A program made the position numbers and the translations under genes. The notes under the pieces were generated by a model, which saw nothing but the letters and a program-made list of their open reading frames with translations, searched no databases and was not told the origin of the DNA. From positions 1 to 59,958 of the IMG/VR virus record IMGVR_UViG_3300014827_000001: DNA of 59,958 nucleotides. The stretch is one strand, 5' to 3'. The stretch is from a virus. Positions within the stretch are counted from its first letter, which is position 1. Each line of letters starts with the position of its first letter. Shown in pieces: positions 13,601 to 38,652 of the stretch.

Positions 13601-13639
13601 TGGGCTACAGAGTCTTTATCTCTGTAGCCCATTCTACCA
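13601..13639 (-). promoter_or_regulatory. Late promoter abutting a 12 bp hairpin
   Basis: On the - strand TGGTAGAAT (13639-13631) is followed directly by TGGGCTACAGAG/CTCTGTAGCCCA (13631-13620 with 13612-13601), a perfect 12 bp stem with a 7 nt loop. Initiation about 7 nt after the -10 would start inside the 5' arm. The ribosome site (13586-13590) lies 10 nt beyond the stem. The stem may also attenuate read-through from the holin gene. Confidence 0.6.
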
Positions 13640-13649
13640 AAATACTAAT

Positions 13650-13856
13650 TTACACAGTGGGGGTTGCCTCATGCTTGCCGGGAGCCGCGTCAGGAGTGAT
13701 GTTGGAAACGGCCAGCCCGGTGCTGAGAAGGGCTGCTGCACAGTTGACCCAGAGCCCAGCCGTGGTGTTGTTCACCAGTCCGTAGGCCACAGCCAGGGGC
13801 TGGACGGTGAGCAGAATCGAGTAAATCCAGGTGCGGGTTTTCGCTGAGAGGTTCAT
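13650..13856 (-). CDS. Holin, two membrane segments
   Basis: 68 residues with two predicted transmembrane helices (about 10-29 and 34-53), a short basic N-terminus and a charged tail, as in small class II holins. It directly follows the endolysin gene (8 bp gap). GGAGA lies 5 nt before the ATG. It would form the membrane lesion that releases the amidase. Confidence 0.78.
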   Translation of the reverse strand: MNLSAKTRTWIYSILLTVQPLAVAYGLVNNTTAGLWVNCAAALLSTGLAVSNITPDAAPGKHEATPTV

Positions 13857-13863
13857 GATTCTC

Positions 13864-14817
13864 CTAGAGGTTGATCTGCTGGCCGGGGTAGATCAGGTCA
13901 GCGTTGATGCCGGGGTTGCGGTCAAGGATGTACTGCAGTGGCACACCGTACTGCTCAGCAATGCCGCCCAGAGTGTCACCCGGATCGACGGTGCAGTACG
14001 GGGGCAGTCCCGAGGGTGCCGGTGCGGCAACAGGAGCCTGCGGGAGGTCCAGCAGCATACCGGGGAAAATCTTGTCCGGCTCGGTGATCCCGTTGATGGC
14101 AATGAGAGCCCCAAGGTCAACTCCGAACTGGACTGCAATGCCTGAGAGGGTGTCGCCCGGATCGACACGGCACTGGCCGGGACCGGGGATGATGTCAAGG
14201 TAGGAGCCTGACTGGGCAACTACGGGAGCAGACTGAACCACAACCGGGGCAAGCACAGCACCGTGGGAGCCGGTGATGTCCGGCATGGGGCCGGGATCGG
14301 TATGGGTGTTGTCCGGGACGTTGCAGTGGCCGTAGTGTCCGCCGTTGGCGTTCCAGACATCCACGTTCCGGGAGTTGCCCTGCCACTGTGGGGAGCCGAG
14401 CGGCCAAGTGCGGGGGATGCCGTTGCTGTCCATCCATCCCAGAATGGTGTCCAGACCGATGAGCGGGGTATCAGCAACGGTGGGGTAACGCTTGCCATCC
14501 ACGACGCAGTTTGGGGAGAAGAACACTTCCACCTGAATGTTGGCAGCGCCGTCCTCGTTCCATGCCACGAGAGCACGGGCGGACTGGCTGGCCGGGTAAT
14601 ACTGTTCGATGTGGCCGGTGAAGGGGTTCCACATGATCGTGGGGCAGTAGCCAACTTTCTTCAGGTAGCCGGAGACGGCGTTGAAGTCGGGCTGTGTGCC
14701 ATCAGGCTTCAGTGCGTCCCATGTGATGTGCCAGACAGCGCGGGCGGGTAGGGAGGCGTTGAGGCTGCCCCCACCGGGCTGCGGAGACTGGACGGCTCCG
14801 GGGCAATAATCAGTCAT
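13864..14817 (-). CDS. Endolysin: N-acetylmuramoyl-L-alanine amidase with two LysM domains
   Basis: 317 residues. The N-terminal amidase_2-type domain has His30 (AVWHITWD) and GHCNVPDNTHTDPG (about 163-176) as zinc ligands. Two LysM repeats follow at about 214-258 and 274-317, each beginning Cys-x-VDPGDTL and ending PGM/PGQ. It cuts the peptide from muramic acid in host peptidoglycan. It overlaps the upstream membrane protein gene by ATGA. Confidence 0.93.
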   Translation of the reverse strand: MTDYCPGAVQSPQPGGGSLNASLPARAVWHITWDALKPDGTQPDFNAVSGYLKKVGYCPTIMWNPFTGHIEQYYPASQSARALVAWNEDGAANIQVEVFFSPNCVVDGKRYPTVADTPLIGLDTILGWMDSNGIPRTWPLGSPQWQGNSRNVDVWNANGGHYGHCNVPDNTHTDPGPMPDITGSHGAVLAPVVVQSAPVVAQSGSYLDIIPGPGQCRVDPGDTLSGIAVQFGVDLGALIAINGITEPDKIFPGMLLDLPQAPVAAPAPSGLPPYCTVDPGDTLGGIAEQYGVPLQYILDRNPGINADLIYPGQQINL

Positions 14818-15242
14818 GCTTGTTCTCCTTGGGTTGAGGTTCCGGTGTTGACGGTGACAGTGGTCTGAGCGGAGGAGGGAACCGGGCAGGCTTCAAGGTG
14901 TGCCTTCAGGCGGGCCTCGGTGCGGTTCACAGCGTCTGCCATCGAGGAGCCCGAGTTGGGGTGCATCTCGTGGTCCAGCTTGTCGATGATGGAGCCGTAC
15001 TTTTCCATCCAGGTATCGGTCTTGACCCCGGAGGCGTCGATGTCCTGAAGCCGCTTCATGACTCCGGGCCGTCCTGTGACGCCTTGACGGTCAGGCTCGC
15101 CGTTCCAGTCTTCGAGGAAGTGGTTGAGCCCTTTTGTCGGGGGCTTCAGGAATTTCCAAGCAACACCCGCGCCAATAACGATCAGGACGTTCAATCCCAG
15201 CCAAGGATTGATGGCAATGAGTTCACTGAGCCACTGGGGCAT
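14814..15242 (-). CDS. DUF2746-like membrane protein of the lysis cassette
   Basis: 142 residues: one N-terminal membrane segment (about 10-32), then a GRPGVMKRL stretch and a helical domain typical of DUF2746 proteins found beside actinophage endolysins. It may be a second holin or a lysis regulator. Its ATG directly follows the stop of an 8-codon leader reading frame (15243-15269). Confidence 0.68.
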   Translation of the reverse strand: MPQWLSELIAINPWLGLNVLIVIGAGVAWKFLKPPTKGLNHFLEDWNGEPDRQGVTGRPGVMKRLQDIDASGVKTDTWMEKYGSIIDKLDHEMHPNSGSSMADAVNRTEARLKAHLEACPVPSSAQTTVTVNTGTSTQGEQA

Positions 15243-15269
15243 TTACATCCCCGCCATTCGGTAATTCAT
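15243..15269 (-). CDS. Eight-codon leader reading frame
   Basis: ATG 15269 encodes MNYRMAGM and ends with TAA that touches the ATG of the next gene. The best ribosome site of the region (GGGAG, 15279-15275) serves this frame, not the membrane protein directly, so the lysis cassette would be reached by re-initiation. It could be chance; the spacing argues for coupling. Confidence 0.35.
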   Translation of the reverse strand: MNYRMAGM

Positions 15270-15276
15270 TATGTCT

Positions 15277-15316
15277 CCCTGTAGAAAAGGTGTATCTAAA
15301 CACCAATTCTACAGGG
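15277..15316 (-). promoter_or_regulatory. Lysis-cassette promoter inside a ribosome-site-sequestering hairpin
   Basis: - strand CCCTGTAGAA (15316-15307) pairs perfectly with TTCTACAGGG (15286-15277), and GGTGT pairs with ACACC inside. The 3' arm includes the first bases of GGGAG (15279-15275). The -10 TAGAAT (15311-15306) lies in the 5' arm, so RNA started here would begin in the loop and leave the ribosome site free, whereas read-through RNA would cover it. No T run follows, so it is not a plain terminator. Confidence 0.6.
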
Positions 15317-15328
15317 GTACACGCCTGC

Positions 15329-15949
15329 CTAAATTGCTACAGGAGTAATGAGGACAATGGACAAAGATTGCAGTGCCGTATTGCTTGCTGTCCTTGCGCC
15401 AATTGTCGGGTCAGGGGTGCCTGCTGGGCCGGATGAGTACCAGTTGACGCTGAGGGTGTCCCCAGCTGCGCAGAGGACCACGCCACTGGCCTGAGAGGTC
15501 TGCCATTGGAGGGGGCCAACCGCGACTTCACAGCCGTTCAGTTCAGTGCCGTTGTGTATGAGTTGAATGGCGATGGATCGGTCCACGTTCTCAGGGGCAC
15601 TGTCCGTGGCCGTGCTGCCATAGGGGGCGAGCGCGGCAGAGGCCGTTATCAGGTACATGCCCGGAATAGTAATGGGGACGACACCGCCTGCGATGGTCAG
15701 ACCCTGGATGAAGTTGGAGGTTCCGTCACCGAGAATTGCGTAGGGGGCAATGACCCCGGTGCTGTATTTCACCCGCGTCCCGCTGGCGATGCTGGCCTTC
15801 AGACCAATGGCCTGTTCCTGAGCCGTGACCCGTGCCCCGATGCCGTTCTCGATGGACGCGGCCATTGCTGCTGACCACACCTCGGAATCGAGGTTGTCCC
15901 CCTCATCCGGGGTCCAGATTGCTGCCCCGCCAGTTGTTACATTTCCCAT
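15329..15949 (-). CDS. Minor tail/receptor-binding candidate
   Basis: 206 residues. An N-terminal 60-residue segment looks like a trimeric stalk (TAQEQAIGLKASIASGTRV). The C-terminal beta-rich part (PGMYLITASAALAPYG, then IAIQLIHNGTE and GDTLSVNWY) resembles C1q/TNF-like jelly-roll tips. Such tips at the end of a tail gene set usually contact the host surface. Confidence 0.6.
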   Translation of the reverse strand: MGNVTTGGAAIWTPDEGDNLDSEVWSAAMAASIENGIGARVTAQEQAIGLKASIASGTRVKYSTGVIAPYAILGDGTSNFIQGLTIAGGVVPITIPGMYLITASAALAPYGSTATDSAPENVDRSIAIQLIHNGTELNGCEVAVGPLQWQTSQASGVVLCAAGDTLSVNWYSSGPAGTPDPTIGARTASNTALQSLSIVLITPVAI

Positions 15950-15958
15950 GATGCCTTT

Positions 15959-17206
15959 CTAAGCCGTAACGGTAACTGTGTTGATGTATGCAGCCAGACT
16001 GGTGGTGCCAAGCGCCTGGATATAGGTGGAGCCGAGGGGCGTTGCAGGGTCAATTGGCATCGTGGTGTCGAACGCGCCTGAGCCGTCTGCGGTGACGGTA
16101 GCGGTGTTGGAGTGGCCGTCCGAAAGCGTCACCGACTCACCAGTATTGAATCCCTCGCCTATGACTTGGATCGCCACACCACGCGGGAAGGTAGCCGGTG
16201 CCTTGATACGGCTCTTTTGCAAGGCTGTGGACGTGGAGTTGCTGGCAGGCCCATCCCACGAATAGGCGTAATGCAGGCCTGTCGGAGTCGAACCGTTGAA
16301 GTTGAAGCCGTCCGGCGCACTGGCTGCCCCTGCATACAGTTCGTCTATGTTCACCACAGACCCAGCGCTGGTCACATCGCTGAGTTCGATGAGCATGCTG
16401 ACGGCCACCAACGGGGAGCCGTCAGTGCTGCTGGTCATCCCAGGTGACCCGGAAGCGTACATCTGCTGCCAGACCCCTGCTGCTGCGGTGACCGACCCGC
16501 TGCTATATCCGACCCTCTGCCCACCCTGGTAGGCGAAGATCAGATACATAGTGCAAAGCTGGGCGGAAGCGCGGCCTTGTATCCATGCGGAAATGTGGTT
16601 CGTGGTGAGGGGCAGGCCATCATAAGAAGCAGTTGCTGCTTGCTGCGGAAAAGTACCACTGGTATTCATATAGCTGATTGCCATGCCGGTGGCACCGCTT
16701 TGGGCCGTTGCGGTCAGAGCAAATGCGCAAGACGTGTTGGTATTGGTCTGTGGTGAGGTGGCCCAGCCTGTTGTGCTTGCCGCCAGCCCCGGATCAAGGA
16801 ACAGGTTCGAGTAACTGGCCTGTGTCCCCCAGAGGTCAGCCAGAGTGAAAACTGGCGGGACGTAGTAGGAGGCGGGATCGCCTGCCGGGAAGGTCTTGGG
16901 CAGCATCACGCTGTTATGGGCGCGGGCAGTCCACACACCGCGCTTGCCATCAAAGGTCAGCAGATCGCCGTCCTGAGCGTCCCGGATGTCAAGGTCTTTC
17001 AGAGACGGCAGCTTCAGCATCACGGGGTTGGCAATGCTGGGCGTGTTGCCCGTGTTCAGGCCGCGCGCAGGATTGGAGTAATCCAGCCCGAAGTCGTTGA
17101 CCATCCTGCGGACAATGGCTTCCAGTTCCTGTATGCGCTGGCGGTCAGTGTTGACCTCTCCGGCCCACTTCTGGGAGCCTCCCGGCAAATCCTTGTGTGT
17201 GCTCAC
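15959..17206 (-). CDS. Minor tail protein, 415 aa
   Basis: Start is GTG 17206, overlapping the stop of the large minor tail gene (GTGA). The N-terminus is a helical region (RIQELEAIVRRMVNDFG) that likely trimerises. The middle is a carbohydrate-binding-module-like beta sandwich (NLFLDPGLA, ISAWIQG, YLIFAYQGG), and the last 100 residues hold an IPT/Ig-like fold (VIGEGFNTGESVTLSDG). Probably part of the tail tip. Confidence 0.65.
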   Translation of the reverse strand: MSTHKDLPGGSQKWAGEVNTDRQRIQELEAIVRRMVNDFGLDYSNPARGLNTGNTPSIANPVMLKLPSLKDLDIRDAQDGDLLTFDGKRGVWTARAHNSVMLPKTFPAGDPASYYVPPVFTLADLWGTQASYSNLFLDPGLAASTTGWATSPQTNTNTSCAFALTATAQSGATGMAISYMNTSGTFPQQAATASYDGLPLTTNHISAWIQGRASAQLCTMYLIFAYQGGQRVGYSSGSVTAAAGVWQQMYASGSPGMTSSTDGSPLVAVSMLIELSDVTSAGSVVNIDELYAGAASAPDGFNFNGSTPTGLHYAYSWDGPASNSTSTALQKSRIKAPATFPRGVAIQVIGEGFNTGESVTLSDGHSNTATVTADGSGAFDTTMPIDPATPLGSTYIQALGTTSLAAYINTVTVTA

Positions 17207-20200
17207 TGCTCGCCCCTTAGTGGTGAGATGTTGAACTGCTTGATGGTGCGTCCTGCGTGTCGCGCCTTTTCGTCCGCGAGGGTTGCCCCTGCAGGGTAGG
17301 ACGCCACGTAGTCCGCCACGGTGGTGTGCGGGACAGCGTTGCCCGAGACCTTGTTGTGGGTCTGGGAGGCGTCCTTGATCCTGTAGACCCGCTTGCCGTC
17401 CGTGAACCGTGTCCCCGAGGGGAACTGGCCGAACCGTGAGGGCGTGTAGAAGTCGTTGGGAATCTCGAACTGGGCATCTGCCACCGAGGCGCTGTACTGG
17501 ACCGCCATGGCAGCTGCAACGTCGTAGGTCTCCTGAACACCGGCAATGAAGGGGGACTCGAAGACGTGGTCGAATCCTTCCTTGGCGTCCTTGGCTCCCG
17601 TGCCGACATGGACTTCCTTGGGGTCGTTCAGGATGCCCGAGCCGCACACGTACAGTGCCGGACGGTCAGCCGCGCCCTCGGAAATCCGGTACGGTGCCCG
17701 CACGCTGTCAATGGTTGGCGCAGTGATCTTGACGTCAATCTCGCCCTCTTTGTCGGTGAGGGAGACCTCGATCTTGCCTCCGTTGTCGATCCACCACTGC
17801 GGGGCGATGATGTACCCATCAGCCCCGGTCACCACGTACTGACCAGCACCAGCCTTGTAGGGGAACGGCTCGATGCCTGGAACGGGGGCAGGGTTGTTCA
17901 CGGACAGGATGGAGTGCTTGGTCTGGACCGTGAACTCCTGCACCTCGCGGGGGTTCACCTGATACACACTGTCCGCACGCCAGAGCACGGCGTCGTCGGT
18001 ACTTACCGCCTTGGACTGCTTGTTGACCACGGCCACCTGCTTGTACTTGTCCCGGCGTTCGGAGTCGCGGCTGAGCTTGGCAAAGTTGCCAGTCGGAGCG
18101 GACAGGGCCGTGACGCGGGGAGCAAGCTTCAGCTGGGAGTTTAGGAGCGATATGTCCTGCCGGGTGATCGCGCAGTATTCGTTCAGCATGGCCCAGACGT
18201 TGGCTGTGAAGCCTGAGACAAAGCCGAACACCTTGGTCGTGGGGGAGAACACCTTCTGGGTGGCGGGCAGGTCCATCGGGTGACCTGCGTTGACGCTCAG
18301 GTAGGTGCCCCAGCGGAGCATTTCGCTCCCTGAGCCCCCCGCAGAGACGTGGGTGACACTGGTGAGGTAGGCCACTGCCGGGAGCGCGTAGGAGGCAACC
18401 GTGGCTGCGGAGGCGTAGCTCAGTGTGCCGGTCCCTGCAAGGTCATCGGTGTGGACGGTCAGCTTGCCCACCACAGCCGTGGAGGACACCCGCTCGATGG
18501 AGAAGGACACCCGGTATTCAGCGTTGGCAGCCACCGTCGTGGAGGCTATCGGCACACCACCCAGACTCGCGGTGATCACTCCCGCTGACGTAGCCGAAAT
18601 CGTGAGGACCGTGGGAACCTTCTTGGAGTCGATCAGGTTCCAGTTGACCGTGGCCGTCCGGCCCGTACCCCGCACGCCGAGACCAATGGAGGCCACCAGC
18701 TTGCGGTTCTTGGGGACACTGACCGGGACGGACACAGCGGCGGGCAGTTTGGCATCGTGCAGGGCCGTGGTTCCGGTGACGGCGGTGCCCATGCTGCGGA
18801 CTGAGCGGTTATTTAGCACAACCGTGCCAGTGGTTCCGCCTACCAGCGTCTCGTAGAACCTAGCGGTTGTATCGAAACCGTAGGAGTCTGTGTGACCGAA
18901 GCCCGAGGCGTAGGCAACAGCGTCACCGGGAACCTTGTCGTAGAACAGTCCGCACTGCTGGGTCCAGTAATCAATCGCGCGTGCGGCTGTCCAGGTGGAG
19001 GCTGTCGCGTCGATGAACGGGAACAGGTGCCGGTCAACGTTCAGCAGCGTCAGGGCCGTGTCCTGCGAGATGGCGGCAACGTCCGAGCCCTCGGGCAGGG
19101 ACAGCCGGACAACCTCACCCTCATAGGTGCCCACAGTGCCATGGGTGAGCACGTTGGTTTCGCCCAGCACAAACTCAGGGTTCTGGCCCTTGATGTACCC
19201 CGCCGAGACGGACGGCGCAGCACCGGAACCCTCAGCTGCGTTCAGCGGTACGGCTGATGTGCTCACGTTGAAGGACACCAGCTTGCCCAGCGGCGCGGTT
19301 CCCAGTTCGGCAGGCGGGGCCGCGTAGCCCAGCTCGGAGTACAGGACACCTTCCCCGCCAAGGTAGGAGGTGAAGTGCGGGTGGTAGGCAAGGGTGGAGA
19401 AGAGCCAGCCCTGTCCATAGCTCTTTGAGCGGATCGTGATAGCCAGATGCGATGTGAGCGTGCCTGACCCGGACAGGGCCGAGTAAATGCCGAGCACGGA
19501 CGTGAGAGCGCCCGAGGATGACAGCCCGGAGGTAATGCGGTGCAGGTTGGCCGTCAAGGTGCCTGAACTTGAAAAACTAGAGTTTATTCGGTGGACAAGC
19601 GAGGTGAGCGTGCCGGAGCCCGAAAGGTTGGAGCTGATGTTCCGCTGCAGTGCCGATGTGAGCGTGCCGGAACCGCTGAGCGTACCGGCAATGGGGGAGC
19701 GGGTTTCGGTGGAAGTGGAGGCGTCCGCCGTACCTGTCCAAGCGTAGGTGAACCCGCTCTGGACCTTGGCACCGTCGAAGTAGGCTCCGAGGGAGGCGGA
19801 TTCTTCCGCGAGGATGGCATCCCAGTAGACATCTCCGCCTCCACTGGAAGCACCGTTGTAGAGACGGAAGAATATTTGACTGGTGTTCGCAGGGACTGTG
19901 AAAGTGGCGGAGAGGCGGTAGGTGCCAGCTGCGTTGGGGGCCTGATTAGTCGGAAACTCGGTGTAGACGTTGCTGGTGTCCATATGGAACACCACGAGTT
20001 TCAGTGCACGTGCGTGCAAAGTGGTTGTCAGAGGTGCCGTGAGTGTGACGTAGCCCGAAACAGTGTAGGTGTGCCCACTGGTCAGGCCGGGGTAGAGGTT
20101 TGTGCCGCCATCTTCGGTGGAGGCAAAGCTGTCATTGCTGGCACCACTGGCCGTGATCTGGAGGCTTTTGGCTCCAGCAATGACGCCTGTTGTGGTGGAC

Positions 20201-20280
20201 GTTCCCTGAGAAACATTCAAGCCTCCGGGGAGAGTTGCCTCCAGCGAGGGAGTCTTGAAGAGGTTAGTGCGCACTGCCAC
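17203..20280 (-). CDS. Large minor tail protein, 1025 aa
   Basis: GTG start with AAGGAAGG upstream. Residues 1-190 form a carbohydrate-binding-like module (TNLFKTPSLEATLPGG, YWDAILAEE, FDGAKV). Residues about 195-280 carry five copies of a 16-18 residue repeat built on LSGSGTLTS, likely a flexible linker. The rest resembles actinophage minor tail proteins at the baseplate. It lies two genes after the distal tail protein, and a host-binding or hub role is inferred. Confidence 0.7.
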   Translation of the reverse strand: MAVRTNLFKTPSLEATLPGGLNVSQGTSTTTGVIAGAKSLQITASGASNDSFASTEDGGTNLYPGLTSGHTYTVSGYVTLTAPLTTTLHARALKLVVFHMDTSNVYTEFPTNQAPNAAGTYRLSATFTVPANTSQIFFRLYNGASSGGGDVYWDAILAEESASLGAYFDGAKVQSGFTYAWTGTADASTSTETRSPIAGTLSGSGTLTSALQRNISSNLSGSGTLTSLVHRINSSFSSSGTLTANLHRITSGLSSSGALTSVLGIYSALSGSGTLTSHLAITIRSKSYGQGWLFSTLAYHPHFTSYLGGEGVLYSELGYAAPPAELGTAPLGKLVSFNVSTSAVPLNAAEGSGAAPSVSAGYIKGQNPEFVLGETNVLTHGTVGTYEGEVVRLSLPEGSDVAAISQDTALTLLNVDRHLFPFIDATASTWTAARAIDYWTQQCGLFYDKVPGDAVAYASGFGHTDSYGFDTTARFYETLVGGTTGTVVLNNRSVRSMGTAVTGTTALHDAKLPAAVSVPVSVPKNRKLVASIGLGVRGTGRTATVNWNLIDSKKVPTVLTISATSAGVITASLGGVPIASTTVAANAEYRVSFSIERVSSTAVVGKLTVHTDDLAGTGTLSYASAATVASYALPAVAYLTSVTHVSAGGSGSEMLRWGTYLSVNAGHPMDLPATQKVFSPTTKVFGFVSGFTANVWAMLNEYCAITRQDISLLNSQLKLAPRVTALSAPTGNFAKLSRDSERRDKYKQVAVVNKQSKAVSTDDAVLWRADSVYQVNPREVQEFTVQTKHSILSVNNPAPVPGIEPFPYKAGAGQYVVTGADGYIIAPQWWIDNGGKIEVSLTDKEGEIDVKITAPTIDSVRAPYRISEGAADRPALYVCGSGILNDPKEVHVGTGAKDAKEGFDHVFESPFIAGVQETYDVAAAMAVQYSASVADAQFEIPNDFYTPSRFGQFPSGTRFTDGKRVYRIKDASQTHNKVSGNAVPHTTVADYVASYPAGATLADEKARHAGRTIKQFNISPLRGEQ
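19433..19690 (-). repeat. Five tandem repeats inside minor tail gene
   Basis: The encoded units start LSGSGTLTS, LSGSGTLTS, FSSSGTLTA, LSSSGALTS and LSGSGTLTS, each 16-18 residues long. The DNA copies have diverged, so the array is old rather than freshly expanded. Confidence 0.7.
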
Positions 20281-20350
20281 CGGAGTTGCCTTCCTTGAAT
20301 ATGACTGTGACGGGGCATGATTACCCCGCCACGACTAGCTCAGGAAGGGC

Positions 20351-21034: not shown

Positions 21035-21050
21035 TTATTTTCTCCTGAAC

Positions 21051-26680: not shown

Positions 26681-26712
26681 AATTCACCACCAATTCCCTA
26701 GAGTCTGACCCC

Positions 26713-26721
26713 ATTCTATCA
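26713..26721 (-). promoter_or_regulatory. Late promoter before tape measure gene (extended -10)
   Basis: - strand TGATAGAAT (26721-26713) lies 33 nt before the GTG of the tape measure gene. No good -35 is seen at 16-18 bp, so an extended -10 promoter is proposed. It lies just past the 14 bp hairpin at 26744-26799. Confidence 0.5.
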
Positions 26722-26743
26722 GTCGGTATTTCTCGGGAAACAA

Positions 26744-26799
26744 ATACAGACCTATACACTAATGTTCCTTTGAGGGAACCATTGCGTATAGGTCTGTAT
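26744..26799 (-). terminator. Hairpin after tail chaperone genes
   Basis: ATACAGACCTATAC (26744-26757) pairs perfectly with GTATAGGTCTGTAT (26786-26799), and GTTCC/GGAAC pair inside. The stem follows the stop of the chaperone extension by 5 nt and precedes the tape measure promoter, so it probably limits read-through between tube/chaperone and tape measure genes. There is no long T run. Confidence 0.6.
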
Positions 26800-26804
26800 C
26801 GGTA

Positions 26805-28009: not shown

Positions 28010-28258
28010 CTAGAGTCCGTGGGTTTCGGGGGCTGAGATGAGGGGGACAGTGACTAGCTTGGTAGCGGGTTCGTCGTCAAGGATGATCTTGTGGCCATCC
28101 TCATCAATGCCAAACTCGATCACCGTGAGCAGGCCAGCGTCGATTGCCACTGTCTGGTGATACAGGAGGCGGGCGGGATTGAGTCCATTGGCCCTGAGCC
28201 AGTTCAGCAAGGGTGGGTGTTTTATCGGGTAGGCGTCCAGCTTGATGCGGCGGCTCAT
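28010..28258 (-). CDS. Small unknown protein, 82 aa
   Basis: Overlaps the upstream gene by ATGA and ends 9 bp before the chaperone gene. It has no known motif; the C-terminal half is beta-rich and acidic. Placed between tail tube and chaperone, so a tail assembly role is possible but unproven. Confidence 0.7.
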   Translation of the reverse strand: MSRRIKLDAYPIKHPPLLNWLRANGLNPARLLYHQTVAIDAGLLTVIEFGIDEDGHKIILDDEPATKLVTVPLISAPETHGL

Positions 28259-28443
28259 TGGGTTTCCCCCAGCTTATTGACGTGGACACGGGCGCGGCAG
28301 GCGCGGATACGTGCCTTGACGTTCTTGATGGCCCAACCCCAGCCCCCCTTGACTTCATCCCAGTTCCGCCCCAGATCAAAGAAGACCCAGAGGCCGAGCA
28401 GGTTCAGCAGGATGTCGAAGAGTTTGTCCCAATAGTCATTCAT
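28255..28443 (-). CDS. Small membrane-associated protein, 62 aa
   Basis: One hydrophobic segment (about residues 8-24, LFDILLNLLGLWVFFDL) and a basic C-terminal half (KARIRACRARVHV). GGAG lies 6 nt before the ATG and directly beside the 3' arm of a hairpin holding a promoter. Unknown function. Confidence 0.7.
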   Translation of the reverse strand: MNDYWDKLFDILLNLLGLWVFFDLGRNWDEVKGGWGWAIKNVKARIRACRARVHVNKLGETQ

Positions 28444-28455
28444 GTTTTGCTCCTA

Positions 28456-28501
28456 ATAAGTATGGCCCTGTATCTGGGTAGATACAGGGCCAAGCTTATC
28501 A
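28456..28501 (-). promoter_or_regulatory. Late promoter in the 5' arm of a hairpin
   Basis: - strand TGATAAGCT (28501-28493) is followed at once by a perfect 13 bp stem (28492-28480 with 28475-28463). ATAAG/CTTAT extends the stem over the -10 itself. GGAG (28453-28450) starts 2 nt after the 3' arm. Read-through RNA would fold against the ribosome site; RNA begun at this promoter would lack most of the 5' arm. Confidence 0.55.
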
Positions 28502-28517
28502 AACTACCTAGTAAGCA

Positions 28518-29363: not shown

Positions 29364-29375
29364 GTCAGGGGCTCC

Positions 29376-29870: not shown

Positions 29871-30133
29871 TAGTTGCCGCCTTCCGTTGCGGGAGCTTCT
29901 GCTGCCTGATCTTCAGTCAGCGGTTCGTCAAGCTGAATTTCATCAGCCTTGTGTTTTGGTGCTCGGGTCAGGTGCTCCCCAAACAATTTGCGTTCTTTGC
30001 CCCGCTGGCGCTCGGTAATCTCAGCGTCATTGAGTTCCCTGAAGTCGGGGAAAGCAGTCAGGTAACTGCGCGGAATAGTCTGCACGAGTTTCGTCACCTC
30101 ATGCACCGCTGTGACCATTTCACTTTCAGACAT
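29870..30133 (-). CDS. Small acidic protein before tail tube genes
   Basis: 87 residues. I choose ATG 30133 because GGAG lies 6 nt upstream; a TTG 12 bp earlier is less likely. The C-terminal 40 residues are acidic and proline-rich, probably disordered. Unknown function in the tail module. Confidence 0.7.
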   Translation of the reverse strand: MSESEMVTAVHEVTKLVQTIPRSYLTAFPDFRELNDAEITERQRGKERKLFGEHLTRAPKHKADEIQLDEPLTEDQAAEAPATEGGN

Positions 30134-30151
30134 GCATAACTCCAATCCTTT

Positions 30152-30170
30152 ATTCCAATTGTACCGGAAT
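30152..30170 (-). promoter_or_regulatory. Late promoter within a small hairpin
   Basis: - strand ATTCC (30170-30166) and GGAAT (30156-30152) enclose TACAAT (30163-30158), a TANNNT -10. The ribosome site of the gene at 29870-30133 lies 8 nt beyond. Weaker than the other examples because the stem has only 5 bp. Confidence 0.4.
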
Positions 30171-30176
30171 GAGGTA

Positions 30177-31473: not shown

Positions 31474-31919
31474 GGCACACCACCGGCAGGTCCGCCAGCG
31501 TTGATGTACTGGAAGTAATCGAAGGGGCTGATCGGGTCATCGAAGTTGACGATGGAGACTTGGAGACCGGCAGTTGCGTCGGCTTCCTCGCGGTCCAATT
31601 TGCCCTGTGCCCGGAAGTCAGCGGCCTGCAAGCGCAGGGCGTTGGTCACGGCAGGTCCATCGGTCTGCAGATTCTCTTTACGGATTTTCCCATCCACTAG
31701 TGATGCGTTAGTGGCAAAGGCCATCAAAGCGTCAGCGGCAGCCAATTTCAAGTAGCCGCCATTCATGGCGATAAAGCCACCAATGAAATCATCGGAAAAG
31801 TAATACTCTGCGGGAGCTGTGAGGTCCATTGGATCAGTGCGGAGCTGGGTGTCGGAAATGAGCAATCTGAGCTGCCCAACCGGACTGGTTGCATCAAGCG
31901 GAAACAGGTCAGTAGTCAT
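31464..31919 (-). CDS. Head-tail adaptor candidate
   Basis: 151 residues. I choose ATG 31919 because the -10 TAGAAT (31932-31927) ends 7 nt before it, which would make a leaderless message; two earlier in-frame starts overlap that -10. The helical content and the place next to the capsid genes fit a connector adaptor. The function is inferred from order. Confidence 0.6.
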   Translation of the reverse strand: MTTDLFPLDATSPVGQLRLLISDTQLRTDPMDLTAPAEYYFSDDFIGGFIAMNGGYLKLAAADALMAFATNASLVDGKIRKENLQTDGPAVTNALRLQAADFRAQGKLDREEADATAGLQVSIVNFDDPISPFDYFQYINAGGPAGGVPWF

Positions 31920-31926
31920 AATAACC

Positions 31927-31935
31927 ATTCTACCG
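31927..31935 (-). promoter_or_regulatory. Probable leaderless promoter for adaptor gene
   Basis: - strand CGGTAGAAT (31935-31927) lies 7 nt before ATG 31919, with no Shine-Dalgarno between. The expected start of transcription falls on the A of the ATG. A hairpin terminator lies upstream at 31964-32009. Confidence 0.5.
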
Positions 31936-31963
31936 TTTATCCGGCTAAGGCTATTTGACACAA

Positions 31964-32009
31964 AACGGCCCCGGTCGAATAGGGGAGCAACCTAAACGCC
32001 GGGACCGTT
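31964..32009 (-). terminator. Terminator between fiber and connector genes
   Basis: AACGGCCCCGG (31964-31974) pairs with CCGGGACCGTT (31999-32009) with one mismatch. On the - strand the 3' arm ends in GTTTTG, giving a short T run. Confidence 0.55.
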
Positions 32010-32097
32010 CCTAGCCAACCACCAGGAGGAGTAGTACCACAAAACAAGGATACCGCATTTTGAATTTTGCTATTTCAGTTAGGGAACTTAACCGGTC

Positions 32098-32220
32098 TTA
32101 TTGGCCCCTGGGCGCGCCTTCGATCTGCGCCTTCAGTGCGGCGTTCTCCTGCAACAGCTGGGCATTCTGAGCGGTGAGTGTGGAGATGAGCGCGAGGATA
32201 GCGGCGGGGTCTACGTTCAT
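32098..32220 (-). CDS. 40-residue coiled-coil peptide
   Basis: ATG 32220 overlaps the stop of the fiber-like gene by ATGA, and the frame runs 40 codons to TAA. The product (LALISTLTAQNAQLLQENAA in its centre) has leucines at heptad spacing, a short leucine zipper. It probably oligomerises with or caps the upstream fiber-like protein. Confidence 0.6.
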   Translation of the reverse strand: MNVDPAAILALISTLTAQNAQLLQENAALKAQIEGAPRGQ

Positions 32221-33353
32221 GCTGTGATTCCAATCCCTGTGAGCGCTACGCGAATTGCGTCTACGGCGGTTTTCATGGCCTGCGCTTCTGCCTGTACATA
32301 GGTGGCTGAGGGCGCGGTGGGGGATGCAATCGCTGCGGCGCGGGTGACCGGCGCCGCACCGTAGAAGCCGATAGCGTTGGTGTTCTTCAACTCGATCAGC
32401 GTGGTCATGGTTTCGGAGCCGATAGCCGCGGCGTTGCCCTGCTGGAACTTGAAAGAGTTCGACGCTGACGCGATTGCGTTAGGGAACCACAGGCCCGGCG
32501 TGCCCGAGTACACGTAATGCGCTTCCTGCGTCCCACCCGAGACGACACTCGCCCTGATCTTGGAAGGGTTGGTGTTGCCGGATTGGAGGACAAATGAGCC
32601 GTCCACGGCATCGATGTAGCCGTTGAGGTTGTCCGCCGCAACATAGCTGGCCGTGCCGTCAACCCCGCCAAACGTGATTGCCGTCCCGGCGAGGGTTGCA
32701 GCTACTTGGAAGGTGTTGGCGGTCGGTGTCACAACATAGTAGGTGGTTCCGTTGGCGATCCCCGTCGTCCCGGTGATCGCGGAGAAGGTGAGCCTCTGAC
32801 CCGCCGTGAGGCCGTGCGCGGTGACGTTGACCGTTGATCCCACAACAGTCAACGTGGCGGCCACCGATGGTCCCGCGAGGCCCCACTCGAAGAGTGCCCC
32901 GGACCCGCCGTAGTCGGCGCGGAGCGATACGAGTACACCGCCGTTCTGGGAGCCCTTCCGGAGTTCCATGACCTTTGCGCCTGAGAATGTGGAGCCGAGT
33001 ATACCGATGGAATCCGAGCCTGAAGTGGTTTCAAGATTCATGCCGATACCGATGCCAGCGTTGGCTTTCACGCTGAACGTGAAACCCTGGGAGCCGTCAT
33101 GATCTACACCGATCCCTGCGACTTCCGAGGTGGACCCGATACCGGAAAGCAGGTGGAATACACGGCCGCTCCCGGCGCTGGTGGCTAGTTCGATCATCGG
33201 GTTGGTGGCGGTCAGGTAATCCGTGTGGCCGAGCTTCAGATAAGTGGCATTAAGTGACGCTGCCTGCGCGGTAACAGGCAACTGGGCGTCCGTGATAGCC
33301 CCCGTGCTGGGAGGGCTCAGGGTGGAGCCTGATTGAAGGACTGAGCGGCTCAT
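32217..33353 (-). CDS. Head fiber/decoration-like protein
   Basis: 378 residues, overlapping genes on both sides. The middle carries a beta domain (VVGSTVNVTAHGLTAGQRLT, then YYVVTPTANTFQVAATLAGT) seen in many phage fibers. The end (NAIGFYGAAPVTRAAAIASP, then AMKTAVDAIRVALTGIG) is typical of short capsid fibers and stalks. The place next to the capsid gene suggests a fiber on the head rather than the tail. Confidence 0.6.
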   Translation of the reverse strand: MSRSVLQSGSTLSPPSTGAITDAQLPVTAQAASLNATYLKLGHTDYLTATNPMIELATSAGSGRVFHLLSGIGSTSEVAGIGVDHDGSQGFTFSVKANAGIGIGMNLETTSGSDSIGILGSTFSGAKVMELRKGSQNGGVLVSLRADYGGSGALFEWGLAGPSVAATLTVVGSTVNVTAHGLTAGQRLTFSAITGTTGIANGTTYYVVTPTANTFQVAATLAGTAITFGGVDGTASYVAADNLNGYIDAVDGSFVLQSGNTNPSKIRASVVSGGTQEAHYVYSGTPGLWFPNAIASASNSFKFQQGNAAAIGSETMTTLIELKNTNAIGFYGAAPVTRAAAIASPTAPSATYVQAEAQAMKTAVDAIRVALTGIGITA

Positions 33354-33691
33354 GCGAACACCGAACCTGTCACCACAAGATCAACGGCTGCTGCGGTTGC
33401 TGCGAAGGCGGCAATCATGTCACCGGGGCCGAACTCGGCTCCCTTGAACATTGTCAGTTCAAAGGTGTCGTTGGCGGCGAGCGGGTACACGTTCAGCACA
33501 CGGTGGGTAGTGTCGCCAACCGTTCCGCCCTTTGGTACGAGGGACACTGAGACGTTGACCGTTGAAGCGGTCACGTTGCAGATGGAGGCGGTTGCAACGG
33601 TGGCTGAGGTGGCGGCAGGAACGGTGTAAACAGCAGCGTCAACGGTGCCGAGCTGTTGGGAAACAAGAATCTGTGGAGTCTGGCCGGACAT
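33350..33691 (-). CDS. Small structural protein, 113 aa
   Basis: Beta-rich and Val/Ala/Thr-rich, overlapping the fiber-like gene by ATGA. AAAGG lies before the ATG. It may be a head decoration or fiber-base protein. It follows the post-capsid hairpin, so it would be made in smaller amounts than the capsid protein. Confidence 0.62.
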   Translation of the reverse strand: MSGQTPQILVSQQLGTVDAAVYTVPAATSATVATASICNVTASTVNVSVSLVPKGGTVGDTTHRVLNVYPLAANDTFELTMFKGAEFGPGDMIAAFAATAAAVDLVVTGSVFA

Positions 33692-33726
33692 GGGCTGGTC
33701 CTTTCAAAGAATGGGTGGATATATGG

Positions 33727-33766
33727 GGAAAGCCCCAGCGAGATACGCTCATCGCTGGGGCTTTCC
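33727..33766 (-). terminator. 15 bp perfect hairpin after the capsid gene
   Basis: GGAAAGCCCCAGCGA (33727-33741) pairs fully with TCGCTGGGGCTTTCC (33752-33766). It stands 15 nt after the major capsid stop. Without a long T run it is probably a partial terminator or an RNA end protector that raises capsid mRNA relative to downstream genes. Confidence 0.7.
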
Positions 33767-33781
33767 ATGGGGCCTAAGCTA

Positions 33782-34954
33782 TTAGGCGAACGTGGACCAA
33801 GGCTCGGTGTAAGCAGTGGTACCGGTAGAGGCGTAGCTGTTCGATGCGAACCAGAAGCCGCCTCGCACTACGTGACGCACACGGTACTCCGCGTCATCGT
33901 TGCGGAGCGAGCCAGCCAGCGTCGGGACAGCCCCGCCGCCGAGGAACAGGCCACCAGCGTTGGACTGGCGGAACTCTGGTGCCTCGTGGTTGCGGAGGAA
34001 GTTCACCACAACACAGTCGCGGATACCATCGGAACCCTGGTAGGGAACCAAGTACCAGCTGGTGGCTGCGGTGGCCGACTTGTCGATCTGGGTCAGCCAG
34101 TCGTTGACAACCAGCACAACATCGGAGTTGGAGACCTGCGACTTGAACCGCTGCTGGCCCTTGCCTGCAACAGCCGGGTCACCGGAGACCGACTCAATCT
34201 CGGTGATCCTCAGGATGCGCTCGGCCCAGTCACGCATGGCGGACGGGACAACGAGTGCGAACTTGGGAACCGTGATGAAGTTGTTGTTCCACTTGCGCTG
34301 ACGCACCGTGCGCTTGGCGTAAGCCAGCGAGTCGATGGAGAGCTGCTTGTTGTCAACGACGTTCAGGTTCGTCGCGTTGAACGTGTCCGGGTTGGCACCG
34401 GTAGCGGTCACAAGAACCTTGACAGCTTCGGTTTCCTCGGTGTTCTTGGCGTACTGGGCCATACGTCCGGGCAGCTGGGCAATGAAGTTCCAGTTGTCGT
34501 TGATGACATCTTCCCAAGAGAAGCCGATGCGAGCACCGGACTTGTAGATGGAAAGCGCCTTGGCGGACGTGGTGAAGCTGAACGCGGGGTACTCGGTCAG
34601 TTCAGGAACAACCGGGAGGGAGCCCGGAGCCGTGACGTGGCCACCGTTGTCAGCAAGGTCCTGGTCGTAGTCGAAGACCAGTTCCTTCTGGAACTTGGGC
34701 TTGAAGTCCTCGAAGATGTCCCGCTTGGCGAACTCGGTCCACGTAGTGGGGAGTGTCGCGTACTGAGCCTGGAGAGCAGCGGCGTTCACAAAAGCGAACG
34801 TCTGCGCCAAGTCAGAGCTGGAAATTGCTTCAGACAGCTGGCCGTCAACGACGGACTTGATGATGCCGCGTGCGCGAAAGTCACCGTGGAGAGCGTCACC
34901 GAAAATCTTGGCGGTCTCCTCGATGTGCTTGGGGAGTACAAGTTCCATAGTCAT
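33782..34954 (-). CDS. Major capsid protein
   Basis: 390 residues. It has the layout of actinophage HK97-fold capsids: helical N-terminal arm, a FQKELVFDYDQD segment (E-loop region), SARIGFSWEDVINDNW-like core (KSGARIGFSWEDVINDNW), and a C-terminal GAVPTLAGSLRNDDAEYRVR, HVVRGGFWF domain. It lies right after the decoration protein and the protease/scaffold gene, as expected. Confidence 0.9.
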   Translation of the reverse strand: MTMELVLPKHIEETAKIFGDALHGDFRARGIIKSVVDGQLSEAISSSDLAQTFAFVNAAALQAQYATLPTTWTEFAKRDIFEDFKPKFQKELVFDYDQDLADNGGHVTAPGSLPVVPELTEYPAFSFTTSAKALSIYKSGARIGFSWEDVINDNWNFIAQLPGRMAQYAKNTEETEAVKVLVTATGANPDTFNATNLNVVDNKQLSIDSLAYAKRTVRQRKWNNNFITVPKFALVVPSAMRDWAERILRITEIESVSGDPAVAGKGQQRFKSQVSNSDVVLVVNDWLTQIDKSATAATSWYLVPYQGSDGIRDCVVVNFLRNHEAPEFRQSNAGGLFLGGGAVPTLAGSLRNDDAEYRVRHVVRGGFWFASNSYASTGTTAYTEPWSTFA

Positions 34955-34959
34955 TTTCC

Positions 34960-35367
34960 TTACGCGCTAGCGACGGTCTGGCCGGGGTTGAGAATGCGGA
35001 CGATGACAGGGGTTGCCGGAGCGGTGCTGGCCCGGAGAGCCACACCCCAGAGGAAGTTGCCAGTGGAGGCCGTGGTCAGTGTGCCATCGGCCTTGATGTA
35101 GACAGCCGAGCCGACAGTCGTTGAACCTGTGACGGTGACAATCCACGCACCCGTGGTCTTGACGGTCGCATAGCCAGCCTCGTTACCGATACCGCCAGTG
35201 GGCTGTGCAATTCCGGCAAAGACGTAATCCGGGTTGGTTACCGAACCTTCATCAGTCTGGGCAACAGCATTCAGGATGCCAATTCGGAGGGCAGTGCCCG
35301 ACTTTACGCCGGTTGCGACGGGGAGGGAAAGCCCTTCCGCGTCTTTGAAAACTTCATTCTTTGCCAT
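34960..35367 (-). CDS. Capsid decoration/stabilisation protein (DUF2190-like)
   Basis: 135 residues from ATG 35367, with AAAGG 8 nt upstream; a GTG 9 bp earlier overlaps that site and is less likely. Beta-rich with SGTALRIGILNAVAQT and VYIKADGTLTTASTGN, resembling DUF2190 head proteins. It ends 5 bp before the capsid gene. Confidence 0.72.
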   Translation of the reverse strand: MAKNEVFKDAEGLSLPVATGVKSGTALRIGILNAVAQTDEGSVTNPDYVFAGIAQPTGGIGNEAGYATVKTTGAWIVTVTGSTTVGSAVYIKADGTLTTASTGNFLWGVALRASTAPATPVIVRILNPGQTVASA

Positions 35368-35406
35368 TATTGGCACCTTTCATCGCTAATACAAGAATAC
35401 CGCATT

Positions 35407-35426
35407 GGCAATTCAGGAGAATTGCC
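35407..35426 (-). terminator. Short hairpin after protease/scaffold gene
   Basis: GGCAATT (35407-35413) pairs with AATTGCC (35420-35426). On the - strand it is followed by AATGCGGTATTCTTG, a -10-like element also found as AATGCGGTATCCTTG near 32050-32065. Possibly a stem plus promoter before the decoration and capsid genes. Confidence 0.4.
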
Positions 35427-35434
35427 GCGAAAAA

Positions 35435-36466
35435 CTACTTGCCGTTTACTGCCTTGATTCCATAAAGGTTGTCAATAATCCCGGCAGTGGCTTCTTCCAG
35501 GCTCTTTGCGCTCTTTTCATCGTGGGCATAACCCTTGAAGGAATGGTCGGCTTCTTCGAGAATGGATTTCACCTTGGCGGCTTCGGCGTCAACGGTTTCC
35601 TTCAGGTCAGCGCCAGCCTCAACCAGAGCGAAAACCGAGGTGCGGGAAGCGGAGGGCAGCTTGGCCTCGGTCAGTGCCTTGTCGATCTCGGCAAAGGAAG
35701 CGGATTCCTTGACAACGGGCTTCTTTTTCTTGATCGGGTTACCAAAGCCGTCTTCACCCTCGGCCTTGTCCTCAGCGTCCGGCTTGCCATCCTCGGGGCC
35801 TTCGGCGTCGTCCTCCTTCTTGGAGTCCTTGACAGCAGGCTTTTTGGCCTCTGCCAGTGCAGCCGTGAGGGCTTCCAACATCTCAGTTTTGAGAGTCGCC
35901 AGAGCCTCAACAATTTCTTTCTCCATGAGAGATTCCTTTTCTTTTTGGGACTCTGCACCACTCTCGGGCGCAGAAACTTTTTCGGATTCGAGCAATTTCA
36001 CAAAACCGCCACCGGCACCGGCCTCGGTCACCACATCAATGGAGTGGACCTTGGTGAATCGGGTGAGTGTTTTGGTGCCGGATGCCTCGGAAACTTCCCC
36101 CTCGGCGCGGATCGACATTCCGATCAATCCGCGCTCTGCGAGTTCCTTGACCATTTCCTGGTACTGGGGGAGGAAGGTGGCATTTGCATAAAGGTCTTTG
36201 CCGTCATACGTGGCACCCTCGGTCAAATACCCGGCAATATCCTGCACCCGGCGTTCCGGCTGGTTAAATTTGTCATCCTGCGTGGGGTGGTTCAGGAAAA
36301 TCTTGGTGTTTTCCTTGAACAGCGGAGCACCTTCTTGCAGGGCTTCTTTGGGGTAATAGGCTGAGGAGCCTTTGCGGTCACCCTCAATTACCTTGATCTT
36401 CCATGTTTTGCCCGTCAGTTGAGCCGGTGCAAGCGCGCCCGCCTCAGTGATTTGCGTAATGGTCAC
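35435..36466 (-). CDS. Prohead protease fused to scaffold domain
   Basis: 343 residues from GTG 36466 (GGAG 7 nt upstream; an earlier in-frame ATG overlaps the promoter). Residues 1-170 form a phage prohead serine protease: FLNHPTQDD supplies the His, RGLIGMSIRAEGE the Ser, and HSIDVVTEAGAGG the end of the fold. Residues about 175-343 are charged, Ala/Lys/Glu-rich and helical, like a scaffold. One polypeptide can thus assemble and then mature the shell. Confidence 0.82.
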   Translation of the reverse strand: MTITQITEAGALAPAQLTGKTWKIKVIEGDRKGSSAYYPKEALQEGAPLFKENTKIFLNHPTQDDKFNQPERRVQDIAGYLTEGATYDGKDLYANATFLPQYQEMVKELAERGLIGMSIRAEGEVSEASGTKTLTRFTKVHSIDVVTEAGAGGGFVKLLESEKVSAPESGAESQKEKESLMEKEIVEALATLKTEMLEALTAALAEAKKPAVKDSKKEDDAEGPEDGKPDAEDKAEGEDGFGNPIKKKKPVVKESASFAEIDKALTEAKLPSASRTSVFALVEAGADLKETVDAEAAKVKSILEEADHSFKGYAHDEKSAKSLEEATAGIIDNLYGIKAVNGK

Positions 36467-36480
36467 AGGGAAACTCCAAT

Positions 36481-36517
36481 CGTCTAAACCCAATCTTATC
36501 ATTTAGGTATTTAGACG
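36481..36517 (-). promoter_or_regulatory. Late promoter in the loop of a hairpin
   Basis: - strand CGTCTAAA (36517-36510) pairs perfectly with TTTAGACG (36488-36481). The loop holds TGATAAGAT (36501-36493), an extended -10. GGAG (36477-36474) follows the 3' arm by 3 nt. RNA begun at this promoter cannot form the stem; read-through RNA from the portal side can. Confidence 0.6.
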
Positions 36518-36535
36518 CTCAGAAATACAGACCTA

Positions 36536-37039
36536 CTAAACAGGGTTTACAACCTGCTGCTCACTCAGCCAGCCCTGCGCGCGGTAATAAGCCTCGAAAT
36601 GGCCGGGGACCACCAGCACGGAATCGTGGCCGAATAATGTCTGTCCACCGGCCTCCAAGGCAATGTCCGTGAGCTGGGAGCAATCCAGTCCGGGGTTACG
36701 CTCCAGCCACTTCACAACGAACCGGGGGATCGGCACACTGAACACCTTGGACGCGAGGAGGCAGATGATCGCGGGGACGTTGTACGGCCTGTCAACCATG
36801 GACCGGGCCTTCATCACGATGGCGTGTGCCTGATCGTCCGTCAGATCAAACCGAGAGACCTCCAGCGAGTGGAAGGTCTTGGGGTCGCGGAGTCGGACCA
36901 GCATCGGCTCAGCAGACACGCACTCGGTCTCGGAGACAAAGACCACGACGTGGCAAGCTGTGGAGTCGGTGGCCCACTCCACAGTCTTGCCCACCCAGTG
37001 TTCGGAGTGGCGAACCAGCCCGATCTGACCGGCCAGCAT
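36536..37039 (-). CDS. NlpC/P60-like (permuted papain fold) protein in head module
   Basis: 167 residues. ACHVVVFVSETE gives the His motif first and GLDCSQLTDIALEAGG the Cys motif later, the circularly permuted order of YiiX/LRAT-like NlpC/P60 proteins. It lies between portal and protease/scaffold genes with 3 bp to the portal. It could be a minor head protein that acts on peptidoglycan or is injected with DNA. Active-site Cys and His are intact. Confidence 0.68.
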   Translation of the reverse strand: MLAGQIGLVRHSEHWVGKTVEWATDSTACHVVVFVSETECVSAEPMLVRLRDPKTFHSLEVSRFDLTDDQAHAIVMKARSMVDRPYNVPAIICLLASKVFSVPIPRFVVKWLERNPGLDCSQLTDIALEAGGQTLFGHDSVLVVPGHFEAYYRAQGWLSEQQVVNPV

Positions 37040-37042
37040 GGC

Positions 37043-38611
37043 CTAGCCCTTAGCCCCGGAGCGCGCGGCGTCTGTGGCGTCCTTGCGGTGCTGGTTGTCA
37101 CCGTAGGACTTCATGCTGCTGTCTGGCTTCTTGGCCCCGCCCAAGGCCGTCTGGTCAGCTGTCTTCTGGGCTGCTGCCTTCTGCTCAGCAGCCTGCTCAC
37201 CCGCGAGCGTGATGGACAGCAGCAGGTTCTTCATCTGGTCCTCAGTGGGCATCCCGTCATCGGTGTCGATGTCGAACGCCTTCAGGAGCAGTTCACGGAT
37301 TTCCTTATCCGACATGACGTTCAGACCTGCAGCCTGCTGAATGGACTGAATCTGGCGGTAGACGGCTTCCATGGCAATCGGCGGGAAGATCACGTCGATG
37401 TCCGGGTAGCCGAGGTATTCCAGGACACCGGAGAGGAACCTCTTATGCTCATCCTGCCGCGCTTTCATGACCTTCTCGTTGGAGTCCGAAAGGGTCTCAG
37501 CCGAGGAGCGGTTGGCGTCCCCGGCATCAGCGGTCAGTTCGTTCAGGGGCACGTTCAGGCCAGCTGCGACGTAGCCAGCCAGCGGGAGCCCAGCCTTGAA
37601 GTCCACGGAGCCGCCCGTGCGGCCCACCGAGGACAGCGTGGCACCACCAGCGCCGACAAAGGTGCTTCCCACGCCGTTGGACTCGCCCGTGAACGGGTCT
37701 CGGGAGGGCTGTGCGGCCACCTTGGTGGCGACGGCTCCTGCACCCGTGCGGGTGGGGAGTGTGGCCTTGAAAGCGAACTGGGAGTACGCCTTGACCAGCG
37801 TGGCCTGATTCTCCAGGAACTCCTTGTGTGCCTTGGCCCAGAACATGACGGGCATGATGTCAGGCACGCCCCACTTCCAGCCGGTCTGCTTGTTGACCGC
37901 GTGGTGGGCGATGACGGAGTTGTAGTTCACCGGGTAGCCCCGGATCATGCGCGGGCGTCCGCTGGCCTGCATGTCGTAGTCGATGGCCGGGACGTACTCG
38001 ATCACCATGGCGGAGGTCTCAGCCTCGGTGTCGGCACTGTTGACCACCCGGAGCCATTCACGACGGTAGAAGAAGATTTCCTCGTGGTTGTCCGGGTTCG
38101 AGACCGTGCCGGTGATCTGGATCAGGGGGAGCCGCATGAGCCCGCGCTTGGAATAGAACTTGTCCTTGGTGGCCAGCAGGAAGTAGTTGCCGTCCGTGCC
38201 AAGGCAGTCCTCCATCTCGGCGCACGCCTTGGGGGAGATGAGGTACTTCTGGGCATTGGGGGACTTGATGAACTTGTCTTTGAGGTCCAAGCCCTTGAAA
38301 TCGACGCCGCTGCCCCAGATGTACGCCTTGCGGACGGACATGCCACGCTTGACCAGGGGGTTGATGACCAGCAGCGCACGGGTAGTGCGCGCGGTCTTCT
38401 TGATCGTGTACAGGGGAACCTCGGTCATGTCGAGGTCTTCACCCATCGGGTTCCAGCCCTGGTTGTCCAGAGCCAGCACCACGTCGGCCATGTTCTCCTG
38501 AAGGATTTCCATGCCGTTCACGAGAGCGGTGTTTTCCACCTTCAGCTCTTCGAGTTGCGCAGCTGTCTTTGCGTCCAACTCGGCTGAATTGCCGAATCCC
38601 CACTTAGCCAT
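37043..38611 (-). CDS. Portal protein
   Basis: 522 residues, directly after the large terminase gene. SMALL helix-rich C-terminus, KRGMSVRKAYIWGSG and AGYVAAGLNVPLNELTADAG (wing and clip regions of actinophage portals) are visible. GGGAGA precedes the ATG and overlaps the 3' arm of a hairpin. The C-terminal 60 residues are Lys/Ala/Gln-rich, likely inside the head. Confidence 0.87.
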   Translation of the reverse strand: MAKWGFGNSAELDAKTAAQLEELKVENTALVNGMEILQENMADVVLALDNQGWNPMGEDLDMTEVPLYTIKKTARTTRALLVINPLVKRGMSVRKAYIWGSGVDFKGLDLKDKFIKSPNAQKYLISPKACAEMEDCLGTDGNYFLLATKDKFYSKRGLMRLPLIQITGTVSNPDNHEEIFFYRREWLRVVNSADTEAETSAMVIEYVPAIDYDMQASGRPRMIRGYPVNYNSVIAHHAVNKQTGWKWGVPDIMPVMFWAKAHKEFLENQATLVKAYSQFAFKATLPTRTGAGAVATKVAAQPSRDPFTGESNGVGSTFVGAGGATLSSVGRTGGSVDFKAGLPLAGYVAAGLNVPLNELTADAGDANRSSAETLSDSNEKVMKARQDEHKRFLSGVLEYLGYPDIDVIFPPIAMEAVYRQIQSIQQAAGLNVMSDKEIRELLLKAFDIDTDDGMPTEDQMKNLLLSITLAGEQAAEQKAAAQKTADQTALGGAKKPDSSMKSYGDNQHRKDATDAARSGAKG

Positions 38612-38619
38612 GAGTCTCC

Positions 38620-38652
38620 CTTGGTGAATTGATTACTACACAGTCTACCAAG
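38620..38652 (-). promoter_or_regulatory. Portal promoter in the 5' arm of a ribosome-site hairpin
   Basis: - strand CTTGGT (38652-38647) pairs perfectly with ACCAAG (38625-38620), and the 3' arm runs into GGGAGA (38620-38615), the portal ribosome site. TGGTAGACT (38650-38642) overlaps the 5' arm. RNA started about 7 nt later would lack the 5' arm and leave the site open. Confidence 0.6.

Follow-up and report, generated by a model that had tools for sequence, protein, structure and literature searches.

Are the late promoters of this phage embedded in RNA hairpins, and what would such hairpins do to RNA that arrives from upstream genes? The window, which is the whole stretch of DNA analysed, is a 59,958-bp virus record from a soil phage that is kin to Arthrobacter phages. 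A sequence-only reading had proposed that extended -10 motifs at six sites, here A to F, lie within stems whose 3' arms reach the next ribosome site, such that RNA reading through would fold at the start site and RNA begun locally could not. All six of the sequences it quoted are present where it placed them, and the recurrence of the arrangement within one operon is supported. The answer reached here is that several late promoters of this phage group probably double as the 5' arms of hairpins, and that these hairpins would insulate late transcription units by stopping either incoming RNA or translation.

Late operon, extended -10 motifs and hairpins

Genes in the window were called from open reading frames and family matches. 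The late operon lies on the - strand, from ~40,951 to 12,137, and runs from a small terminase-like gene through the terminase, portal, protease, decoration, capsid, tail and tape-measure genes to an end part that holds a holin-like gene, endolysin, holin, gene F and metallophosphoesterase. The closest named phages are the Arthrobacter phages Amigo and Molivia, with a terminase identity of 42-43%; nearer kin come from IMG/VR and comprise G001 (portal identity 77%), G003, G005, G008, G009 and several fragments. Bacterial genomes yielded no relative of the capsid protein, and Rfam gave no match in the window. The motifs and stems of the six sites are as follows.

38642-38650, - strand: site A extended -10, TGGTAGACT, before the portal gene
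38620-38652, - strand: site A stem, 6 bp, CTTGGT/ACCAAG
36493-36501, - strand: site B extended -10, TGATAAGAT, in the loop
36481-36517, - strand: site B stem, 8 bp, CGTCTAAA/TTTAGACG, around the -10
30152-30170, - strand: site E stem, 5 bp, ATTCC/GGAAT
28493-28501, - strand: site C extended -10, TGATAAGCT, following the major tail protein gene
28463-28492, - strand: site C stem, 13 bp with a 4-nt loop, then TACTTATT; directly after the -10 and terminator-like
15306-15311, - strand: site D -10 hexamer, TAGAAT, its first five bases within the 5' arm
15277-15316, - strand: site D stem, 10 bp, CCCTGTAGAA/TTCTACAGGG, plus an inner 5-bp stem
13631-13639, - strand: site F extended -10, TGGTAGAAT, following the lysis genes
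13598-13634, - strand: site F stem, 15 bp and perfect, with a 7-nt loop; it opens with GAAT, which also closes the -10

With the extended -10 motif defined as TGnTAnnnT, five of 16 such motifs on the - strand fall within 1.08 kb of late-operon gaps, a density ~17-fold above expectation (p = 7e-6), and the motifs are kept at the same gaps in relatives. A sigma-70 scan requiring a -35 box detected no late promoter in the 13-29 kb region; thus, the late promoters would be -35-poor and of the extended -10 type. The arrangement is not found in every gap of the operon: in the tape-measure gap (26681-26804), a terminator is followed by a distinct promoter.

26713-26721, - strand: putative tape-measure promoter, TGATAGAAT; a separate terminator hairpin lies upstream, at 26744-26799

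Two further elements accompany these motifs. A CTTACTAG-like block, which is a candidate activator site, stands 10-25 nt upstream of several late -10s in the window and its relatives (~38665, 28510 and 13650, - strand). The tape-measure message leader (26681-26712, - strand), CAGACTCTAGGGAATTGGTGGTGAATT, is near-identical between phages whose tape-measure proteins are 56-70% identical.

Compared with the genome background, the embedded stems give p values of 0.001 for F, 0.002 for C, 0.015 for D, 0.17 for B and 0.23 for A, with none for E; fold z-scores against dinucleotide shuffles are -7.4 for D, -6.45 for C, -5.84 for F, -1.86 for B, -0.9 for E and -0.54 for A. In the window, hairpins C, D and F are real, B is borderline, and A and E, both at chance level, are unsupported. 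The notion of hairpin-embedded -10s consequently stands at three sites, is marginal at a fourth and falls at two, and F, which had been ranked as a weaker case, is among the strongest. Stem sequence is unrelated from site to site, and a generic terminator scan gave counts that were not above those of shuffles. A scan of eight phages found strong hairpin starts at 17 of 160 extended -10 motifs versus 1.2 expected (p = 8e-15), with 1-5 hairpins in shifted controls. C or F sites account for 15 of the 17; one other adjoins an Amigo hairpin upstream of gene 20, and the last lies in Molivia on the other strand.

Conservation and pairing at sites C and F

Site C was compared in nine phages (the window, L011, G001, G003, G005, G008, G009, Amigo and Molivia) and site F in eight (the window, G004, G001, G005, G008, G009, Amigo and Molivia). 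Three observations mark both sites as conserved. First, the extended -10 is in the same place in 9/9 copies of C and is conserved in 8/8 copies of F, and in every copy the stem starts 0-2 nt past the -10 or inside it. Second, 100% of cells are paired at C, with two-sided compensatory changes at 9 of 11 pairs, and 98.9% are paired at F, with such changes at 10 of 13. Third, the covariation score of C is 1.08 versus 0.26 in shuffles and at most 0.19 in slid registers, slid registers are likewise far lower at F, and no shuffle reached the observed score at either site. Whole-site MAFFT alignments misplaced the 3' arms, and arm-registered alignments, made by hand from fetched sequences, were used instead; the results depend on the chosen register, which is covered by the slid controls. 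The expectation that the stems would covary in related phages was realized at C and F, and the stems of A and E are not kept.

The stem sequence at C and at F is unrelated between many phages, yet pairing is preserved. This bears on whether the inverted repeats are DNA operators of a dimeric regulator, a reading that draws on the overlap between the palindromes and the promoters. However, stem sequence varies among sites and among phages at one site, with pairing alone kept, and loop length varies as well. Since covariation occurs without a common sequence, the operator reading was rejected as exceedingly improbable.

Both sites resemble terminators. Site C has the GC-rich stem of at least 5 pairs and the U-rich tail of an intrinsic terminator, with 4-8 U in the 10 nt after the stem in 9/9 copies, and is the top terminator-like match in the 13-29 kb region. 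At site F, 4-6 U are present in the 10 nt after the stem in 6/8 phages, and the window and G004 have 2 there; some copies of C and F have poor U tracts, F of the window among them. The next ribosome site lies outside both stems.

28450-28454, - strand: AGGAG ribosome site of the gene at 28255-28443, not within the main site C stem

Only a weak outer extension of the C stem reaches this ribosome site, and the F stem ends at 13598, leaving a 7-nt spacer before AGGAG. The proposed contact, with 3' arms touching or ending within 3 nt of the ribosome site, is found at D, A and B, is confined at C to that weak extension, and is lacking at F. In most phages the predicted openness of the ribosome site at C and F hardly differs between read-through and local RNA; the behavior of T4 gene e, whose ribosome site is hidden by pairing in long RNA and accessible in locally begun RNA, is not seen at either site. 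It is because openness hardly changes and the 3' flank is mostly U-rich that C and F look like terminators. The sequence-only reading had named stems acting simply as terminators among the outcomes that would refute it, and this is how C and F appear.

From the observed sequences, positions, conservation, covariation and predicted folds, we infer active promoters at the -10 motifs, their start points, termination and a biological purpose. A polymerase arriving from upstream would copy the entire inverted repeat, and the read-through RNA would fold. Local RNA would begin ~7 nt after the -10, within the arm or loop, making the full stem impossible. The -10 abuts the C and F stems, so that the start is expected in the 5' arm, and local RNA without the arm part that pairs beside the U tract should not terminate there. 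Against this, local RNA would still hold 5-8 bp of the C and F stems. The earlier claim that only read-through RNA carries the full 5' arm is supported, with a start point that is predicted. Sites C and F are most likely intrinsic terminators escaped by their own promoter: the hairpin would terminate incoming RNA, and the promoter within it would escape.

Two other explanations accept these hairpins. Ordinary terminators of the upstream genes could abut the next promoter merely through genome compactness. This would account for the resemblance of C and F to terminators, for the presence in the same phages of gaps with separate terminator and promoter (the tape-measure gap), and for the more distant actinophages Yappy, Lifes, Jacko, Nonagon, Hubbs and CN1A, in which terminator and promoter are mostly apart or no clear promoter is seen. 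It does not account for a 0-2 nt register held in all C and F copies despite sequence turnover, nor for D, B and A of some relatives, where the -10 is inside a stem without a U tract, and we regard compactness as an unlikely explanation. Alternatively, the hairpin could work in the mature RNA, as an RNase processing site or a protector of intercistronic ends, with the -10 incidental or secondary. Strong intercistronic hairpins after an abundant structural gene would suit this role, and local RNA would retain a short 5' stem. The ~17-fold excess of extended -10s in late gaps and their retention at every C and F copy nevertheless render a role of this kind very improbable, and self-escaping termination is preferred at these two sites.

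Site D and the sites that vary between relatives

The hairpin before the holin gene differs from those at C and F in where its 3' arm ends and in what follows it.

15275-15280, - strand: ribosome site AGGGAG, into which the 3' arm of the site D stem runs
15243-15269, - strand: leader ORF MNYRMAGM*, eight codons, with a stop that abuts the holin start codon

The leader ORF is kept in 5/6 phages, including G004, G001, G009 and, with 14 codons, G005, and is absent in G008. The stem is kept in G001, G004, G008 and G009, with a length of up to 15 bp, and its pairing is rewired in G005; a DNA pattern scan with the D core returned two more members (G008 and G009) and ~25 unrelated chance matches. Covariation is weak at this site because both arms are nearly invariant. 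In read-through RNA the predicted openness of the ribosome site is 0.29 in the window and 0.00 in G001 and G009, which corresponds to the paired ribosome site of T4 gene e, and the promoter is placed such that local RNA, from its predicted start, would lack the 5' arm. Site D fits T4-type occlusion by each feature open to test, its start points and effect on translation being predictions. The hairpin would hide the ribosome site of the leader ORF joined to holin, and only local RNA would give rise to holin. Against this, the RNA silenced would stem from promoters of the same class in the same operon, with no obvious benefit. The corresponding gap in Amigo and Molivia contains a terminator-like hairpin with TGTAAAAT in the 5' arm, and their C and F hairpins are likewise terminator-like with the -10 in or at the 5' arm; the promoter-in-hairpin placement seems to be kept, and its putative output to differ between this clade and Amigo/Molivia.

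Sites A and B are weak in the window and strong in some relatives. The -10 of B is kept in relatives, and in G005 and L010 it is surrounded by a long stem by which GGAG is fully covered (z = -6.16 in G005). At A, relatives of moderate divergence do not preserve the stem; Amigo, Rings and Molivia have a long one that encloses the -10 and covers GGGAG before a likely GTG start. Predicted read-through openness is 0.00 for B in G005 and for A in Amigo and Molivia. The E stem recurs in G009 only. As functional hairpins of the window phage, A and E were rejected, as they are at chance level and not kept. At A and B the putative promoter-in-hairpin design is present in some phages and absent from others, and at C and F it is constant.

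These comparisons also weigh on the idea that all sites are T4-lysozyme-like switches, with a ribosome site hidden in read-through RNA and freed in local RNA. Site D of this clade, B of G005 and A of Amigo and Molivia behave as this would require, and even in the window the predicted openness in read-through versus local RNA is 0.13 versus 0.62 at A and 0.23 versus 0.63 at B. The idea fails to extend to C and F, where openness hardly shifts and the ribosome site is outside the stem, or to the chance-level, unconserved stems of A and E, and as a rule for all sites it is improbable. Folding at the start site, proposed as one mechanism, therefore survives at D, and strongly at B and A only in some relatives, and not at C or F.

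A broader reading covers both kinds of gap: conserved self-escaping terminators would be 40-60 bp elements that end one message and start the next, other gaps would block translation, and gaps would switch form over evolution, as at D (occlusion in this clade, terminator-like in Amigo/Molivia). Taken jointly, these statements are tentative, and we place them slightly short of an even chance. If true, they would describe a compact way to set the expression of each late gene from its own promoter within a long operon, would offer a natural design for terminator-promoter parts that spare themselves, and would carry the hairpin logic of T4 over to a set of sites in phages that infect another group of hosts. 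Isolates of Arthrobacter phages make the idea directly testable.

Elements of note occur at other gaps too. Amigo and Molivia have a strong hairpin upstream of the small-terminase gene, whose loop and 3' arm carry an extended -10, TGATAGGCTGGG; in Amigo this is the hairpin upstream of gene 20 mentioned above.

L093 262-375: hairpin before the small-terminase gene, Amigo
L094 560-668: hairpin before the small-terminase gene, Molivia

In the window, the ATG of the small terminase-like gene is preceded, at a distance of 6 nt, by the hexamer TAAACT, and the interval holds no ribosome site (40952-40963, - strand); TAARCT followed by 6-7 nt and ATG is kept in most relatives, and Amigo gene 27 is similar. 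This suggests a conserved leaderless message for the small terminase-like gene. The 255-bp gap at 31962-32216 (- strand) holds a block, GTGGTNCTACTCCTCC, and, immediately upstream of the start codon, a terminator-like hairpin; both can be recognized in relatives.

Comparison with known systems

Promoter-in-hairpin occlusion is known in T4 at many genes, including e, soc, 49, I-TevI, I-TevII, I-TevIII and segB (PMC3014915, PMC2988022), so that the sequence-only reading was mistaken in supposing that T4 uses this logic once. In T4 gene e and T4-type late genes, as well as mobE of Aeh1, the promoter lies within the 5' strand of the hairpin, which forms in read-through RNA but not in local RNA (PMC3014915, PMC2988022). 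Site D, like e, precedes a lysis gene. T4 silences early and middle RNA by way of a separate class of late promoters, whereas in the present phage the promoters that produce the incoming RNA seem to be of the same kind. Unlike the T4-type sites, C and F leave the ribosome site uncovered.

SAS and ESAS elements of cluster K mycobacteriophages and cluster EF Microbacterium phages are inverted repeats upstream of the ribosome sites of some genes (PMC3203893, PMC7302621), and the present sites resemble them in occurring upstream of ribosome sites at a subset of genes. However, SAS/ESAS share conserved sequence between sites, and those of cluster K are among non-structural genes, whereas the sites described here have no common stem sequence and occur in structural and lysis genes. 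The shared 13-bp sequence at the ribosome site and the shared 17-bp inverted repeats of SAS/ESAS were not found.

With intrinsic (Rho-independent) terminators, C and F share a stem rich in GC and, at the majority of copies, a tail rich in U. They differ in that the -10 of the next unit is at or in the 5' arm and that the predicted start is inside the stem. In the open-access literature, no account was found of phages with a conserved set of terminators that contain the next promoter. The translational form of this arrangement is already known from T4, and the conserved terminator form may be new.
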